Shown: one piece after another, positions 11,480 to 28,447 of the stretch | How the letters are laid out: each line of letters opens with the position of its first letter | Position numbering within the stretch: position 1 is the first letter of the stretch | DNA from: Flavobacteriaceae bacterium | Lineage (GTDB): Bacteria; Bacteroidota; Bacteroidia; Flavobacteriales; Flavobacteriaceae | Direction: 5' to 3' | Length of the DNA: 33,523 nt | NCBI GenBank assembly: GCA_013043825.1 | Contig: JABDNM010000003.1 | Span: 1-33,523, forward strand | Notes under the pieces: generated by a model | What the model saw: only the letters and a program-made list of their open reading frames with translations | Databases searched by the model: none | What the model was told of the DNA's origin: nothing | Position numbers and translations under genes: made by a program

Positions 11480-11487
11480 TACTTTTG
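11480..11487 (+). promoter_or_regulatory. Predicted rpsO -7 element
   Basis: TACTTTTG matches TAnnTTTG and lies 57 nt before the S15 ATG. This also argues against translation from the TTG at 11485, which lies inside the element. Confidence 0.6.
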
Positions 11488-11544
11488 CAGCCTAATTACC
11501 ACGAAGGTAGTTGGGTACATAAAAATCATTTAAATAATATTGGC

Positions 11545-11814
11545 ATGTATTTATCACCAAAAGAGAAAGAAAAGATCTTTAAAAAGCACGGAAAGTCCGC
11601 CAAGGACACGGGCTCTGCAGAAGGTCAGATCGCGTTGTTCACCCATCGAATCGATCACTTAACAAAGCATTTAAAAACCAACCACAAGGATTATAACACC
11701 GAACGATCCCTGGTGAAGTTGGTAGGAAAACGACGCTCGTTACTTGATTACCTCATGAAGAAGGATATTATGAGATACCGTGCGATCGTTAAAGAATTAG
11801 GATTACGTAAGTAA
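11545..11814 (+). CDS. rpsO: 30S ribosomal protein S15
   Basis: This primary 16S rRNA-binding protein of the small subunit is 89 aa from the ATG at 11545 (MYLSPKEKEKIFKKHG), exactly the normal length. The frame is open upstream to a TTG at 11485, but those 20 codons cover the promoter and are not S15-like. The conserved core is present: GSAEGQIALFTHRIDHLTKHLK, then HKDYNTERSLVKLVGKRRSLLDYL and the C-terminal RYRAIVKELGLRK. It is followed by a terminator and then pnp, the same rpsO-pnp order as in many bacteria, including Escherichia coli. Confidence 0.97.
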   Translation: MYLSPKEKEKIFKKHGKSAKDTGSAEGQIALFTHRIDHLTKHLKTNHKDYNTERSLVKLVGKRRSLLDYLMKKDIMRYRAIVKELGLRK

Positions 11815-15782: not shown

Positions 15783-18494
15783 ATGAAAACACTACTCAAT
15801 CGTTTTAAAACGAAGAACGAGCTTGTTGGTATTGATGTAGATTCTCCAAAGGACACTAGAGGTTCCTTTATTGAATTCTTCATCGACAAAGGCTCCTATA
15901 ACTTCCAGCGAGAGCAAATAAGCATTCGTCTGGAAGCTTTTCAATTTCCTGAAAATGAGTATTGGGCGAACCTCTGTTTGGTCAAGTTTTACCTTGAAAT
16001 AGAGGATCACCTGGTTGTAAAAGACCCAGGATTTACAGGTGGCGCTTCGCAATTACGTGCTGATATTAAGACGAATTTCCCTGAAATAGCCGCTAGTGAA
16101 GCATTTCTTCCACTCTTTGAAGAAAAGAAAAACCAGGAGATCCTATTGGTATGCAATTTGTTGAAATTTCTTCTCACAGGTTTCATAGATGACCCGAAGT
16201 CTGAATCTAAGGCCTCACGATGGCTGGAGGTACTAAAATATCGACTCAAAGAAAGGACCAGCGATGAATTGGTTCAGCAAATTAATACGCTAACTAAGCT
16301 TCGAGATCATTCAAAAGAGATCTATAAAGACTTTGTAGACTCCTTCGGATTCGAATGGACCAACGAAATTATTGATAAGCAACACCAAGCATTCATTGAA
16401 TTTTATCCAAGCTTAAACATAAGCCGAATGTTGCAAGAGTACAATCCAATTGAACATACTGAAATAGATGTGCCAAAACCCAGAATGGCAGCCATCAAGG
16501 CCGTTAAAGGTGATCACAAGAAGCAGTCGTCACAACTAATTAACAAGCGGTCGATCATCGAACATATATTAGATGGGTTTGTAGTGATCAACAGAAAAGG
16601 TAATATACTGGATTATAACCGTAATACCCTTGAAATACTTGGTCTGAGTGAAACCAGCGTGAAACGTAACTCAATTTTCGATTTCTTTCCCTTCGAATTT
16701 ACAACAAGCTTCAAGGCAGATTTCAATAAAACCGATCCTGCCACACCCAACCAGGTGATCGGTCGCAGGCATGAAATTGTACTTGAAAGAACGGGTAATG
16801 AGGTGGTGGACTACGAAATTGCAGTTACAAATAATTATTCCGAAGGGGAGGACACCTATACCCTTCTGTTGAAAAATATTACAGATAAACGGGATACTAT
16901 AAAAGCGATCAACGAGGCCAAGGCCAATGCCGAACGAACTGCTAAAGCGAAATCGACATTCTTGTCGAATATGAGTCACGAAATTCGCACACCTCTGAAC
17001 GTGATCCTGGGACTTTCTGAAATCATCAAGAAGAGTGATCTCGAGGATACCACCTTGCTGCGTAAGAATGTAGATGGGATCGACTTTTCTGCTAAGAACT
17101 TGCTCTCCATTGTAAACGACATTTTAGATTTCTCGAAGATCGAAGCGGGTAAATTGACTATCCAATCCATCGATTTCAACCTCAAGAAGCTTGTAGCAAG
17201 CTTGTCGGATGGCTTTGAGATAAAAGCCAGGGAAAAAGGGTTGAATTTGATCTACGAAATCGATAAAAACGTCCCAGATGTTGTGATTGGGGACCAGTAC
17301 AGGCTTAACCAGATCCTGTCTAACCTCATCAGTAATGCGATAAAATTTACCAAAAGCGGTCAAATTTCAATCTCGGTATCGAATGTGGCTGCAAAGGGCG
17401 AACAATTGCAACTTCAATTTAAGGTCCAGGACTCAGGGATCGGGATTGCGGAGGATAAATTGGATAAGATCTTTGAAAGTTTCTTCCAACTCGAGGACCA
17501 GGAGTCGCTGAAGGAAACGGGAACCGGTCTAGGGCTTGCCATTACTAAAGAATTGATCAAACTGCAACATGGAACACTCCATGCCACCAGCGTGGTTGGA
17601 GAAGGATCTACCTTTGAGTTTACTTTGCCTTTTGTGAAAAGTAAGTTGAAAGGCATCGCGACCAAGGTAACCAAGCAGGAACGCGAAATTGCCAAATTGG
17701 AAGGCCTGAAAGTCCTGGTTGCCGAGGATAATAAAATGAATCAATTCTACATCAACCAATTGCTGCATAGCTTTAAAGTAGATGTAGATATAGCCGAAAA
17801 TGGTCAGGAAGCAGTAGAGATCTTTGAAAGAGCCGACTTCCACTACGACCTGGTTTTAATGGATATGCATATGCCGTTCATGAATGGGATAGAGGCTATT
17901 ACTGAAATTCGTTCCACCAAAAAATACCGACAGAAAAAAGTGCCCATCGTTGCCTGTTCGGCCGATGTGTTCCCTGAAGCACGTAAAAACGCTATTAAGG
18001 CCGGCATCGATTTTTATCTTACCAAACCGTTGAATGAGGACGCTGTCAAAGAAGTACTCTTCTGGTTGATCTCGGACCAAGTGGCCGATCCAACGATAGT
18101 TTTGGATGAACTTTCCAAGAAGAAAGACAACGAGTCTCGTAACAGTAGTGTAGATATGACCCTATTGAAGGAGACCTTTGATAATGACGAAGAATTTATC
18201 ATCGAACTCCTTGAAGTATTTGTCAAAACCACCCCTGAGGACTATAAAAGTTTGCGAACCTGTATGGATCGCGAATACTATGTGCGTGCTAGTTCACTAG
18301 CCCATAAAATGAAGTCCAGCTTCATGAATTTGGGAATGACCACTCATGGGCATCATCTACAAATTATAGAATCCAATGTGGCCACCAAGGATGGATTGGA
18401 AGAAGCCAAGAAACACATGACTGCCTTCAGTAATATGTACACCAAAGCACTTCTGGAAGTAAATATTCTCCTCATTGAACTAAAACAGAAGTAA
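15783..18494 (+). CDS. Hybrid sensor histidine kinase with receiver and HPt domains
   Basis: This 903-residue signalling protein combines a full phosphorelay in one chain. Residues 1-250 match no domain I recognise and lack membrane segments, so the protein is probably cytoplasmic. A PAS domain covers about 255-370. HisKA follows with the phospho-accepting histidine H399 in SNMSHEIRTPLN. The ATPase domain has N518 in the N box (LISNAIKF), DSGIG near 550 and GTGLGLAITK near 580. The receiver has phospho-acceptor D694 (VLMDMHMP) and K748. The HPt domain has H841 in SLAHKMKSSF. The final DNA-binding partner is not in the window. It lies directly upstream of the primary sigma factor gene, but 204 nt separate them and I infer no functional link. 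Confidence 0.92.
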   Translation: MKTLLNRFKTKNELVGIDVDSPKDTRGSFIEFFIDKGSYNFQREQISIRLEAFQFPENEYWANLCLVKFYLEIEDHLVVKDPGFTGGASQLRADIKTNFPEIAASEAFLPLFEEKKNQEILLVCNLLKFLLTGFIDDPKSESKASRWLEVLKYRLKERTSDELVQQINTLTKLRDHSKEIYKDFVDSFGFEWTNEIIDKQHQAFIEFYPSLNISRMLQEYNPIEHTEIDVPKPRMAAIKAVKGDHKKQSSQLINKRSIIEHILDGFVVINRKGNILDYNRNTLEILGLSETSVKRNSIFDFFPFEFTTSFKADFNKTDPATPNQVIGRRHEIVLERTGNEVVDYEIAVTNNYSEGEDTYTLLLKNITDKRDTIKAINEAKANAERTAKAKSTFLSNMSHEIRTPLNVILGLSEIIKKSDLEDTTLLRKNVDGIDFSAKNLLSIVNDILDFSKIEAGKLTIQSIDFNLKKLVASLSDGFEIKAREKGLNLIYEIDKNVPDVVIGDQYRLNQILSNLISNAIKFTKSGQISISVSNVAAKGEQLQLQFKVQDSGIGIAEDKLDKIFESFFQLEDQESLKETGTGLGLAITKELIKLQHGTLHATSVVGEGSTFEFTLPFVKSKLKGIATKVTKQEREIAKLEGLKVLVAEDNKMNQFYINQLLHSFKVDVDIAENGQEAVEIFERADFHYDLVLMDMHMPFMNGIEAITEIRSTKKYRQKKVPIVACSADVFPEARKNAIKAGIDFYLTKPLNEDAVKEVLFWLISDQVADPTIVLDELSKKKDNESRNSSVDMTLLKETFDNDEEFIIELLEVFVKTTPEDYKSLRTCMDREYYVRASSLAHKMKSSFMNLGMTTHGHHLQIIESNVATKDGLEEAKKHMTAFSNMYTKALLEVNILLIELKQK

Positions 18495-25382: not shown

Positions 25383-25832
25383 ATGAGCCTATCGACACAG
25401 ATCACAGAAGCGATGAAGGAAGCCATGAAATCGAAAGATTCCATGAGTTTGCAGGCCTTGCGGTCCATCAAATCGGCGATCTTACTGGCTCAAACGGAAA
25501 CGGGAGCAAAAGAGGAATTGAGTACTGAACAAGAGCTGAAGATTCTGCAAAAGCTGGTGAAGCAACGCAAGGATAGTGCATCCATCTTTAAAGAACAGGG
25601 CAGGGATGACCTGGCCGAACCCGAACTTGAGGAAGCCAAAGTGATTCAACAATTCCTTCCCGAACAAATGAGCGAGGAGGATGTAGCCAAGGTAGTCGAT
25701 GAGATCATTGCACAAACTGGCGCAAGTTCGATGAAGGACATGGGAAAGGTAATGGGTATGGCGAACGGGCGGTTAGCAGGAAAAGCAGATGGTAAAACCA
25801 TTTCGGGAATTGTAAAACAACGATTAAGTTAA
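25383..25832 (+). CDS. yqeY: GatB/YqeY domain protein
   Basis: This 149-residue protein is of the YqeY family, related to the tail domain of GatB, the amidotransferase subunit that contacts tRNA. The pattern is complete: ITEAMKEAMKSKDSMSLQALRSIKSAI at the start, then LVKQRKDSASIFKEQGRDDLAEPELEEAKVIQQFLPEQMS, and the C-terminal MGKVMGMANGRLAGKADGKTISGIVKQRLS. Its role is not settled; a tRNA-related function is suspected from the GatB similarity. In flavobacteria yqeY often lies near ftsZ, as here, though convergent. A tRNA-Arg gene begins 5 nt after its stop, so the two may share a transcript. Confidence 0.9.
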   Translation: MSLSTQITEAMKEAMKSKDSMSLQALRSIKSAILLAQTETGAKEELSTEQELKILQKLVKQRKDSASIFKEQGRDDLAEPELEEAKVIQQFLPEQMSEEDVAKVVDEIIAQTGASSMKDMGKVMGMANGRLAGKADGKTISGIVKQRLS

Positions 25833-25837
25833 AACTA

Positions 25838-25911
25838 GGCCGCGTGGCGCAACTGAATAGCGCATCAGATTTCGGCTCTGAGGGTTGGGGGTTTGAATCC
25901 CTCCGCGGTCA
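25838..25911 (+). tRNA. tRNA-Arg, anticodon TCG
   Basis: All arms fold. The acceptor is GGCCGCG with CGCGGTC (one G-T pair at 2-71), T8-G9, the D stem is GCGC/GCGC, the anticodon stem TCAGA/TCTGA with loop TTTCGGC, the variable loop GGGTT and the T stem GGGGG/CCCTC with loop TTTGAAT. The discriminator is A73. The anticodon TCG (25872-25874) reads CGA and, after wobble modification, other CGN arginine codons. A20, an arginine identity base in E. coli, is present. CCA is not encoded. The D loop has G18-A19 and the T loop has U56 in place of C56, a paired change. It is 74 nt long. Confidence 0.93.
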
Positions 25912-25920
25912 CGAATAAAT
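25901..25920 (+). repeat. tRNA-tail direct repeat, copy 1 (end of the tRNA-Arg gene)
   Basis: CTCCGCGGTCACGAATAAAT covers the last 11 nt of the tRNA gene and the 9 nt after it. An identical 20-nt copy lies at 26116-26135. Confidence 0.95.
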
Positions 25921-25978
25921 AAAAAACCTGGACGTAAAATCGAGCTTGCTTGAATTTTTTAGTTCAGGTTTTTTATTT
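25917..25978. terminator. Long hairpin just behind tRNA-Arg (probable terminator)
   Basis: A 14-nt arm at 25917-25930 (AAATAAAAAACCTG) pairs perfectly with 25965-25978 around a 34-nt loop. The 3' arm carries a T run, so it can act as a terminator for yqeY and the tRNA. The large loop looks like an insertion into a simpler hairpin. Confidence 0.7.
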
Positions 25979-25984
25979 TCAAAG

Positions 25985-26059
25985 CGGAGCTTTGAGGGAT
26001 CATGAGTGAAACGAGTAATCCCAACTAACATAGACCGCGTCGGGTTCAAACGCCGGGCG
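25985..26059 (+). repeat. 75-nt repeat R, copy 1
   Basis: It begins CGGAGC and contains GGGATCATGAG, ATCCCAACTAACATA, GACCGCGT and GGGTTCAAACGCC. The last 48 nt (26012-26059) are identical to 26254-26301 in copy 2, and the first part differs at a few bases. GGGAT and ATCCC within it can pair. GACCGCG is complementary to the acceptor 3' strand of tRNA-Arg. Confidence 0.9.
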
Positions 26060-26075
26060 CTAGCTGGCCCCTCGC

Positions 26076-26100
26076 GTGATTTGTCCACCGGACAAATCAT
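26076..26100 (+). repeat. Perfect hairpin between the repeat units
   Basis: TGATTTGTCC (26077-26086) and GGACAAATCA (26090-26099) form a 10-bp stem with a 3-nt ACC loop, extended by a G-T pair. It lies in the 56-nt linker found only between copy 1 of R and copy 2 of the tRNA tail. Confidence 0.8.
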
Positions 26101-26115
26101 ACTTCGCTCGGTCCT

Positions 26116-26135
26116 CTCCGCGGTCACGAATAAAT
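26116..26135 (+). repeat. tRNA-tail direct repeat, copy 2
   Basis: Identical to 25901-25920, but not part of a complete tRNA gene: no anticodon or T arm precedes it. Confidence 0.95.
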
Positions 26136-26219
26136 CAACAAAAAGTTGAGCCATGAGCGAGTTCCAAAAAAGGAGCTCGCTTCTTTTTTGGATATTGCAA
26201 GTGGATCTTTTGTTGATTT
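26132..26219. repeat. Nested hairpins following tRNA-tail copy 2
   Basis: The outer arms AAATCAACAAAA (26132-26143) and TTTTGTTGATTT (26208-26219) pair perfectly. Inside, TCCAAAAAAG (26163-26172) pairs with CTTTTTTGGA (26183-26192). It occupies the same place in unit 2 as the hairpin at 25917-25978 does in unit 1, but with unrelated sequence. Confidence 0.75.
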
Positions 26220-26225
26220 TCAACA

Positions 26226-26301
26226 CGGAGCGCTCTAGGGATCATGAGCAACGCGAGTAATCCCAACTAACATAGACCGCGTCGGGTTCAAACGCCGGGC
26301 G
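26226..26301 (+). repeat. 76-nt repeat R, copy 2
   Basis: Second copy of the 25985-26059 repeat, with 48 identical nucleotides at its 3' end (26254-26301). The sequence after it is unrelated to that after copy 1. Confidence 0.9.
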
Positions 26302-26404: not shown

Positions 26405-28447
26405 CTAGTCTACGTTATCATGCAGGAATGAGTTGTTGGAACGGAGGTCGATATCATCATCGTCGTCTGTATTTACAGATGTGCGGGAAATATTCGTATC
26501 CTCGCTGTCTTCCGATTCATCTAAGTCGATCCCCATTCGTTTATAGGCGGGTTCCTTTTCAATTTCATCGATCTTGGCGGCAGAGTTCCTAAACTTATAA
26601 TTGAATTCCTTCATTTTTTTCTTCCGCTCTTCGGTTCGATCTTTCAAAAGTTGCGAGATAGGGGTATTCAAAGGATCGGCGGGTTCACTCTTGTCAGATT
26701 CTGTTTCTGGGGCATCAACGGTCTTGGTCTCGAATTTCAATTCTTCCTCGGTCAATTCCTCCTCTAAAGATTCAGGCTTGGCGTTCATAAGATTATCTTC
26801 GACTTCCTGATAATCGTCCAGGCTATAACGTTTTACCCCTTCTTCGGTGATCTCGGTGATGGGAACGATCTCGATGGGATCTGTAACTTCTATATCTTCT
26901 AGATTACGGACGATGCGCTCGGGGTCCACTTCTTCTTCAACTTTGATCTCTGAGGTCACGGTAGTTTTCTCCGGCGTTGTATTTACAGGTAAGTCGAACA
27001 TTAGCATTTGTTCCTCCATCTCATCGACTTCTGCTTTTGTAGAATGCACTTCGGTAAACCCTTCAGTCTCTCTCTTTCGTTCCCCTTCTACGATCACGAA
27101 ATTCTTTACATCGATATCGTTGATATCGATCTGTTCAAATTCGGCTAAATAATGAATGTCGAGCAAGGTAGACTCTACCTGGATGTTTCGAATCAACTTT
27201 GTAGTTTCAATATATCCTTCAAATGGTAACTCTGTTTGCTCTTCTTCCGTTTCTTCAACATCTATCTTGGTTTCAACCTTATCCACTGCTCCGGCAGCCT
27301 CATCTTCAAACAAGGTATGTCGAATAACAGGTTGTTCCTTTTGAACCTGGGCCGGAACTTCCACCACCGCCGGCTTGGACATTAATTCGTGCTCTGCTTT
27401 CTGTTCATCTTCCAGGGTGTGAATAATTCGCTTTGCCTCAGTATTCACGATCTCGTCCTGCTGTTCGGCATTGAATCCAGTGGCTATGACGGTAATTGCG
27501 ATAGCACCTTCCAAACTGGAGTCCTCTCCTACCCCCATAATAATGTTGGCACTGTGGCCCGCTTCGGTTTGAATGTGGTCACTGATCTCGCCAATCTCAT
27601 CGATGGTGATCTCTTCAGTTCCGGATACGATGAGTAAGAGTACATTTTTGGCTCCTTTGATCTTGTTATCGTTCAACAAGGGTGAATCCAAGGCCCTGGA
27701 GATGGCTTCATGTGCTCGATTCGATCCACTGGCCTGCGCACTACCCATGATGGCGGTGCCACTATTGGCAAGAACGGTTTTCGCATCGCGAAGGTCAATG
27801 TTTTGAGTATAGTGGTGTGTAATTACTTCAGCGATCCCACGAGCGGCAGTGGCTAGTACTTCATCGGCTTTGGAAAAGCCGGCTTTAAATCCCAGATTAC
27901 CATATACCTCGCGCAATTTATTGTTGTTGATCACAATGAGTGAATCACAATTCTCTCGCAATTTCTCTACGCCTATTTGTGCCTGATCATTTCTAATCTT
28001 TCCTTCGAACTGAAAGGGAATCGTAACAATCCCTACGGTAAGTACATCTAGTTCCTTCGCCATTTTAGCAATAATCGGAGCCGCACCTGTTCCTGTACCA
28101 CCTCCCATACCGGCGGTTATGAAAATCATCTTGGTATTGGTCATGAGCATGTTCTTGATGTCCTCAAGACTTTCCATGGCCGACTGTTCTCCTATCACCG
28201 GGTTTGCACCTGCACCTAATCCTTCGGTGAGAGAGACGCCTAGCTGGATCTTTATGGGAACCGGACTGTTTTCCAACGCCTGCGCATCGGTGTTACAGAT
28301 AACAAAATCCACACCTTTTATCCCTTGGCTGAACATGTGGTTGATCGCATTGCTACCTCCCCCACCAACTCCAATAACCTTGATCACGTTTGATTGGTTC
28401 TTTGGCAGGTCGAAAGCAATGTTATCAAATTCTGTTTTGCTGCTCAT
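26405..28447 (-). CDS. ftsZ: Cell division protein FtsZ with long acidic tail
   Basis: This tubulin-like GTPase forms the division ring. The GTPase core is intact: GGGGSNA at residues 28-34, NTDAQAL near 52, the tubulin signature GGGTGTGA at 115-122, and the synergy loop region around NIDLRDAKTVLAN. The total length is 680 aa, far more than about 390 in many bacteria. Roughly residues 335-680 form a very acidic, probably disordered linker rich in Glu, Asp and Thr. The extreme C terminus (IDLRSNNSFLHDNVD) replaces the classical FtsA/ZipA-binding peptide and resembles the tail I recall from other flavobacterial FtsZ proteins. It is the last gene of the division cluster, 77 nt after ftsA. Confidence 0.96.
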   Translation of the reverse strand: MSSKTEFDNIAFDLPKNQSNVIKVIGVGGGGSNAINHMFSQGIKGVDFVICNTDAQALENSPVPIKIQLGVSLTEGLGAGANPVIGEQSAMESLEDIKNMLMTNTKMIFITAGMGGGTGTGAAPIIAKMAKELDVLTVGIVTIPFQFEGKIRNDQAQIGVEKLRENCDSLIVINNNKLREVYGNLGFKAGFSKADEVLATAARGIAEVITHHYTQNIDLRDAKTVLANSGTAIMGSAQASGSNRAHEAISRALDSPLLNDNKIKGAKNVLLLIVSGTEEITIDEIGEISDHIQTEAGHSANIIMGVGEDSSLEGAIAITVIATGFNAEQQDEIVNTEAKRIIHTLEDEQKAEHELMSKPAVVEVPAQVQKEQPVIRHTLFEDEAAGAVDKVETKIDVEETEEEQTELPFEGYIETTKLIRNIQVESTLLDIHYLAEFEQIDINDIDVKNFVIVEGERKRETEGFTEVHSTKAEVDEMEEQMLMFDLPVNTTPEKTTVTSEIKVEEEVDPERIVRNLEDIEVTDPIEIVPITEITEEGVKRYSLDDYQEVEDNLMNAKPESLEEELTEEELKFETKTVDAPETESDKSEPADPLNTPISQLLKDRTEERKKKMKEFNYKFRNSAAKIDEIEKEPAYKRMGIDLDESEDSEDTNISRTSVNTDDDDDIDLRSNNSFLHDNVD

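Follow-up and report, generated by a model that had tools for sequence, protein, structure and literature searches.

The locus analyzed here raises the question of why an intact tRNA gene is followed by a second copy of its own 3' end, and how the array of repeats and hairpins behind it came into being. The window, i.e., the whole stretch of DNA that was analyzed, comprises 33,523 nt and originates from a Flavobacteriaceae bacterium (G000; G and L numbers denote genomes and loci throughout), whose genome consists of 257 contigs and is 82.5% complete. The tRNA-Arg(TCG) gene is intact and was identified at 25838-25912 on the plus strand by ARAGORN and by the Rfam family RF00005. The yqeY gene (25383-25832, plus strand; Pfam PF09424) ends 5 nt upstream of it, and the order at the locus is yqeY, tRNA-Arg(TCG), two units and then the convergent ftsZ gene (26405-28447, minus strand; TIGR00065 and Pfam). 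Both protein genes serve as syntenic anchors, and the end of ftsZ is syntenically similar in the congener G005. The encoded FtsZ has a length of 680 aa, with about 340 residues located outside the part matched by the FtsZ model. At the gathering level, Rfam reports the tRNA and an S15-Flavobacteria ribosomal protein leader (RF03161, 67.9 bits; 11480-11547, plus strand) in the window and nothing else. No Rfam family other than tRNA was detected in the array; the remaining matches with E ≤ 5 are below the gathering scores.

The array consists of two units behind the tRNA-Arg, each with a copy of the tRNA tail, a strong hairpin and a repeat. Unit 1 (25901-26115, plus strand, 215 bp) contains the tail that completes the tRNA, a type-1 hairpin, the repeat R and a palindromic core. 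Unit 2 (26116-26301, plus strand) contains the displaced tail, a type-2 hairpin and R. The original prediction had placed an array with a recurring 20-nt tail here, and both the array coordinates and the recurrence are borne out: the tail with its flank, CTCCGCGGTCACGAATAAAT, is found exactly at 25901-25920 and at 26116-26135 (both plus strand). The first copy comprises the last 12 nt of the tRNA-Arg and GAATAAAT and thereby forms the 3' end of the intact tRNA; the second is its exact duplicate. Hairpin 1 (25917-25978, plus strand) is terminator-like according to folding and covariation and has a T-rich 3' arm. Its outer stem had been given as 14 bp but measures 16 bp (25918-25933 paired with 25962-25977). 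The outer stem of hairpin 2 has a length of 12 nt (26132-26143 with 26208-26219). Hairpin 2 (26132-26219, plus strand) consists of an outer and an inner stem, and its inner part (26155-26182) scores terminator-like. A small palindrome, CAAAGCGGAGCTTTG, is located at 25980-25994 (plus strand) and is also present behind the tRNA-Arg of several relatives. A search of the source genome with up to three mismatches gave six matches to it, one of which is the window; one further match that was inspected lies in apparently coding sequence.

The two copies of R are located at 25995-26059 and 26237-26301 (both plus strand). R has a length of 65 nt; the copies agree at 61 of 65 positions (94%), and the last 48 bases are identical. 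Within R copy 1, the 3' end of the tRNA-Arg recurs in inverted orientation at 26033-26054 (minus strand; 19 of 22 aligned bases, one gap), and R copy 2 holds a second such inverted tail at 26275-26296. The alignment of the inverted tail scores 24; the 95% level of shuffled sequences is 16, and the highest score among 2000 shuffles is 24 as well. Reading it as a direct copy of the 5' end was rejected (score 12 versus 24). The core of unit 1, CTGGCCCCTCG...GTCCACCGGAC...GGTCC (26064-26114, plus strand), includes a palindrome at 26077-26099. Among 99 genomes, its pattern occurs only in the window and at a tRNA-Leu of G003; looser versions were seen by eye at tRNA-Gln and tRNA-Asn. For R, a DNA search of the source genome (82.5% complete) returned only the window and its own hairpins on the other strand. 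An exact 23-mer of R had no match in the genome_contigs collection, in which the source genome is possibly absent, and a degenerate R-hairpin pattern matched this window only, among the 99 genomes. Tandem Repeats Finder reported no array in the window. A repeat family defined by R, with the 48-nt core as the shared item, was rejected, as the searches with R were empty outside the window. What is copied at a given tRNA is the tail of that tRNA, which is why R itself is not found elsewhere.

One explanation for the array is that its units are tandem terminators under selection, which owe their maintenance to termination rather than to mobility and shield the tRNA-Arg against the convergent ftsZ. 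The folds of both hairpins are much more stable than those of shuffled sequences, with -24.9 kcal/mol for hairpin 1 (25912-25982, z -6.8) and -39.4 kcal/mol for hairpin 2 (26128-26222, z -7.2). The smaller palindromes are similar to shuffles in this respect (25978-26021, z -1.9; 26218-26265, z +0.2; 26034-26129, z -2.0). A stable hairpin with a T-run, as in intrinsic terminators, is present, and a scan of the plus strand for the terminator consensus reported the inner part of hairpin 2 and did not report hairpin 1. Across six tRNA-Arg loci, which were picked by hand from 30 tRNA-Arg genes with four other good matches left out, 97.9% of the cells in the outer stem of hairpin 1 are paired. Two-sided changes occur in 11 of the 16 pairs, a value reached by none of 500 shuffles, and pairing drops to 41-61% if the partners are slid by 1-3 columns. 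In these six chosen loci, the hairpin is conserved as a structure and not as a sequence. This part of the original prediction stands; the two hairpins show no relationship to one another in sequence, but homologues of each were found at tRNA-Arg genes of other species, one set from outside and one from within the genus. Structure and T-rich arm fit a terminator with fast sequence turnover between similar flanks. The folding, the covariation in the chosen loci and the convergent ftsZ speak for selected terminators, but tail copies, inverted tails, upstream head copies and nuclease ORFs would be left unexplained, and the congener G005 has one unit only. As the reason for the array, selection for termination appears improbable. 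Terminator function as such can be compatible with an invasion of the tRNA gene or with plain duplication.

The arrangement is not restricted to the tRNA-Arg of the window. Downstream copies of the tRNA's own 3' end (at least 12 nt, reaching within one base of the tRNA boundary) were found for 6 of 18 tRNAs in the source genome, which is incomplete and in which some flanks are short, for 6 of 32 in G003 and for 1 of 38 in G019. Upstream copies of the own 5' end are present at 3/18, 4/32 and 0/38 tRNAs, respectively. Pairing tRNAs with the flanks of non-cognate tRNAs as a control gave 1/284, 0/950 and 0/1358 for tails and 1/284, 1/950 and 0/1358 for heads. The tRNA-Val array of G019 was missed by the tail test because ARAGORN called its broken copy a tRNA, which was then masked. 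Direct repeats of at least 16 nt within 600 nt downstream were detected for 8/18, 15/32 and 4/38 tRNAs of the three genomes and upstream for 2/18, 3/32 and 1/38, whereas no such repeat was detected in 41 window slices or in 76 slices taken 900-1500 nt downstream. The architecture, unlike its letters, recurs, and the array is not a lone duplication. A single local duplication had been named as the finding that would speak against a tRNA-borne repeat family in Flavobacteriaceae; instead, copies of the own tRNA occur at other tRNAs of G000, G003 and G019, with 0-1 cases per 284-1358 control pairs. The predicted tandem growth was likewise observed in relatives. Tandem repeats whose boundaries differ are present in L005, L008, L014, L020 and L026. 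At the tRNA-Ser(tga) of the source genome (L083, contig C224), a copy of the tRNA-Ser 5' end is located about 1.2 kb upstream and a tail copy downstream; the ORF after the 5' copy resembles, by eye, a GIY-YIG domain with an insertion.

For the origin of the two hairpins, their blocks were compared with 29 loci from relatives, which contain 30 tRNA-Arg genes. Ranked by their match to the unit-1 block, the top seven are all from other genera, namely G016 (69/75), G019 (64/79), G013, G032, G020, G033 and G017 in this order, with those of G020 and G017 sitting at Arg(acg). In genomes of the same genus, at most the last 18-27 nt of this block match. The four best matches to the unit-2 block, in contrast, are all from the same genus (G005, 83/97; G008, 80/97; G003, 75/86; G004, 41/48). 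In G001, G002 and G007, also of this genus, the match to the unit-2 block is not above shuffles and neither block is matched well. The congener G005 carries an identical tRNA-Arg with one type-2 unit between the same neighbours and no unit 1. Unit 1 would thus be the incoming cassette, and the original 3' end of the locus would be unit 2. The hairpins alone carry information in this regard, as the tails do not differ. G005 retains a piece of the inverted tail, which aligns over 13 nt only, and of the core, so that it may be a reduced array instead of a never-invaded site. Both hairpin types could also be ancestral, with one lost in the congeners. Since R is 94% identical despite the differing hairpins, unit 1 is not a simple foreign block, and conversion or duplication would be needed in addition. 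Occupied and empty alleles at one site, a feature of SegB-like homing, were found upstream of the tRNA-Arg. A nuclease element occupies this site in G003 and G004, the end of YqeY in G003 being read by eye, and the gap between YqeY and tRNA-Arg is only 5-11 nt in G000, G005 and G008, which represents the empty site. The corresponding gap in G001 is 156 nt.

We lean towards the interpretation that the array in the window is a nuclease-less case of a family of self-restoring elements which invade tRNA genes. A unit of this family would comprise a duplicate of the end of the tRNA in question, with a new terminator downstream of it, and a palindromic segment. On entry into a tRNA gene, the copy carried by the unit would complete the tRNA and its terminator would end the transcript, and the original tRNA end with its terminator would be displaced and persist as a remnant further downstream. 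The tRNA-Arg of the window would now be completed by unit 1, and unit 2 would be the displaced native end. The drive might come from a GIY-YIG enzyme that makes a double-strand break in the tRNA gene, which would be repaired by copying from, or by recombination with, a unit-bearing allele. Such a repair would also explain the tandem growth. As the window array is without a nuclease, the enzyme would have acted in trans at this locus or would have been lost. Cleavage, mobility, action in trans and the succession of events at the tRNA-Arg are what we infer from these sequence comparisons.

An integrase att site is classically recognised by direct repeats of the 3' end of a tRNA, which are present at this locus. 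The tail repeats could be attL/attR-like scars of a genomic island. However, no integrase or transposase was found among the 25 of 64 listed window ORFs that were tested against Pfam (5 of the 25 matched no family), the units have a length of only about 200 bp, and copies of 5' ends occur upstream of tRNAs as well. An ordinary integrase target is very unlikely.

The enzyme proposed to drive the invasion of tRNA genes is absent from the window array but is found at other tRNA genes of the same genome. At the fMet gene, the tRNA terminator is succeeded by a GIY-YIG ORF, behind which a palindrome, another tRNA tail with another terminator and the beginning of a further ORF are located. At a tRNA-Ala (contig C54), the GIY-YIG ORF is of the upstream type and lies between a truncated tRNA head with a palindrome and the intact tRNA, and at a tRNA-Asn it lies beyond two tail copies. 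Nuclease-bearing arrays of relatives were found at Met, Arg, Val, His and Asp, the Asp stretch being without an intact tRNA. The GIY-YIG catalytic domain, also a SegB-like feature, was detected in tRNA-linked ORFs that all lie outside the window (PF01541, 52.3 and 60.7 bits at a cut-off of 22.6). In the downstream-type arrays L088, L096 and L059, the T-run of the tRNA terminator directly bears an ATG of the nuclease (TTTTTTTATG), and read-through would be needed for its expression.

The linkage was quantified for 76 short GIY-YIG hits, chosen among the matches listed, with neighbouring copies in one array counted apart; this choice excluded long frames of the UvrC or exonuclease type, a frame of 249 aa and a pseudogene containing six stops. 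A tRNA is present within 1.5 kb of 25 of these hits (21 separate places), always on the same strand, and a tRNA or a fragment near 31, compared to fragments in 0 of 12 control windows. In a tree that omits seven proteins shorter than 70 aa and two duplicates, 21 of 22 tRNA-adjacent proteins are on one side of a branch with a support of 92/80, L048 being outside. Two others are found with them, a fragment row and a row cut by the start of its contig. Near the other 45 of the 76 hits there is no tRNA or fragment, and nearly all of those in the tree are on the other side. One of the other clade, L089 (contig C30 of the source genome, hit 16501-16716), has several GTCAGTTCGAGCGCAGTCGAGAAC repeats around its GIY-YIG ORF and no tRNA; it is possibly a separate palindrome-plus-GIY-YIG system. 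Of the 12 tRNAs with tail copies in G000 and G003, 9 have no GIY-YIG hit adjoining.

One nuclease group, of the upstream type, was used for a scan of GTDB species genomes, and the best 80 of 407 candidates are referred to as the named set. At least four of its 80 loci (L236, L240, L248 and L274) match contigs of G003, G004, G002 and G019, so it is not fully independent. A tRNA on the same strand within 700 nt is present in 76 of these best 80 loci and one on the opposite strand in none. With intact tRNAs masked, a partial copy (at least 14 nt) of that tRNA was found in 57 of the 80, compared to 18 of 3736 non-cognate pairs. The best 80 are mostly from Flavobacteriaceae and other Bacteroidota. 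Outliers with a tRNA are from Ignavibacteria/Melioribacter, one Neomarinimicrobiota and one Magasanikbacteria, and one Scalindua record is without a tRNA. The nuclease lineage tracks tRNA identity, with 23 changes compared to a shuffled mean of 44.5 and none of 200 shuffles as low; this test drops two too-short loci and four without tRNA from the named set, and in the other set it omits proteins shorter than 70 aa and tRNAs more than 480 nt away, which removes L048. Near-copies contribute to this clustering, and the trees, computed from about 100 columns, contain many unresolved forks and four Leu rows that do not cluster. A lineage that follows tRNA identity is as expected of site-specific homing enzymes. 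In a collection of viral contigs, one relative of the upstream-type nuclease was found (L313, IMGVR_UViG_3300037608_000191), compared to the 407 candidates in genome_contigs.

A common break point was also seen among the truncated head copies. In 16 of 23 head copies of the named set, the tRNA breaks at nt 21-22. Fourteen of the 16 are Arg(tcg/acg) or Ala and two are Arg(cct); they are not independent, because they are largely Arg/Ala and seven are from six Arenibacter loci. In 14 of these 16 copies, a palindrome begins with CCCGCCCG. A perfect palindrome of at least 7 bp is located at the break in 10 of 23 head copies and 5 of 23 tail copies, compared to 10 of 400 random places, and palindromes at the break are enriched, not universal. 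A search with the palindrome pattern gave 12 hits, of which ten are in tRNA head copies, one in a tRNA-Gln tail copy and one is unrelated; the TA site in these hits is partly built in, as the search pattern began with TA. In several arrays of relatives, inspection by eye shows that the broken copy has a palindrome where its anticodon arm would be. In L095, L051 and L116, ARAGORN calls a tRNA-SeC beside a tRNA-Val. By eye, the call in L095 is a tRNA-Val copy with a palindrome in place of the anticodon arm, and all three are likely false annotations. In general, truncated copies can be called tRNA genes, some of them as tRNA-SeC by ARAGORN, which should be considered in genome annotation.

These observations also bear on the possibility that local tandem duplication alone has formed the arrays. 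Palindrome-prone DNA would be duplicated by slippage or unequal recombination, the hairpins would diverge or be converted, and the GIY-YIG ORFs would be passengers. This is consistent with the tandem repeats of differing boundaries in five loci, with the identity of R between the units and with the many arrays that are without a nuclease. It does not account for the copies of the own tRNA, which extend to its first or last base, or for the position of the break in the head copies, which is nt 21-22 in 16 of 23 (mostly Arg/Ala, several from close relatives). In addition, repeats are present in 0 of 117 control slices, the unit-1 hairpin is foreign-like, and one nuclease group is near-completely linked to tRNAs. 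We consider duplication alone to be rather unlikely, though clearly ahead of selected terminators.

Returning to the invasion of tRNA genes, a more general form of it is evenly balanced in our view. Bacteroidota and some other phyla may host a large, so far undescribed class of minimal mobile elements with a one-domain GIY-YIG enzyme, the lineages of which would mostly be bound to particular tRNAs. These would break tRNA genes and carry the missing part, either the 5' head or the 3' tail with a terminator, and would leave truncated, often palindrome-marked copies behind. Arrays without a GIY-YIG ORF would be passengers, and the arrays would record invasions, including transfers between genera. 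If this is true, many of the unexplained repeats around flavobacterial tRNA genes can be read as scars left by a drive-like element, and a role emerges for small orphan GIY-YIG ORFs.

A literature search, covering titles and the openings of abstracts with few subscription papers and preprints, gave no description of bacterial chromosomes in which GIY-YIG ORFs occur together with partial copies of tRNAs. The family of tRNA-gene elements is apparently undescribed so far. In REP/RAYT systems, palindromes are located next to a small DNA enzyme, the RAYTs being HUH transposases. The elements described here differ from these in that the enzyme is a GIY-YIG nuclease and the palindromes lie within tRNA copies. 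Like bacterial group I introns with homing endonucleases, some of which are found in tRNA genes, they are small, some carry a nuclease gene, they reside in tRNA genes and they may be phenotypically neutral (PMC3984707). Group I introns are spliced from the RNA, whereas here the copied part of the tRNA would restore the gene. SegB of the phages T4/T6 is a free-standing GIY-YIG homing endonuclease next to tRNA genes and can drive the tandem amplification of tRNA-nuclease segments through recombination (PMC13096335). A GIY-YIG enzyme adjoining tRNA genes is common to both cases, and for SegB nuclease-dependent tandem repeats with parts of tRNA and nuclease are described; in that phage system, however, a full-length tRNA gene is amplified under selection, whereas the copies found here are chromosomal and partial (PMC13096335).

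The closest similarity is to the mobile ORFs (mORFs) of fungal mitochondria, which carry a foreign gene 3' end, in Allomyces at atp6 and in Glomus sp. at atp6, atp9, cox2 and nad3, and which are recognised by a foreign-like inserted gene end and a native-like displaced end (PMC3630166). There, an inserted copy supplies the end of the host gene, whose native end has been moved downstream; the displaced end resembles close relatives and the inserted end is divergent, and an endonuclease ORF lies in between, of the GIY-YIG type in the atp9 case (PMC3630166). In the window, an end that completes the gene and an end downstream of it were found, the latter being assigned as native from the relatives of the hairpins. 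The hairpins also show the contrast between a native end similar to near relatives and an inserted end similar to distant ones, from which R departs. An endonuclease ORF inside the unit is absent in the window and present at fMet of G000 and in relatives, and because of this absence the window array is not counted as a member of the self-restoring homing elements. In contrast to the mORFs, the hosts here are bacterial tRNA genes, a terminator is carried, many broken copies contain palindromes, 5'-end versions exist and the unit in the window is nuclease-less. If our interpretation is true, self-restoring homing is a strategy not only at protein genes of fungal mitochondria but also at tRNA genes of bacteria, and these elements do by restoration of DNA what introns and inteins do by splicing.
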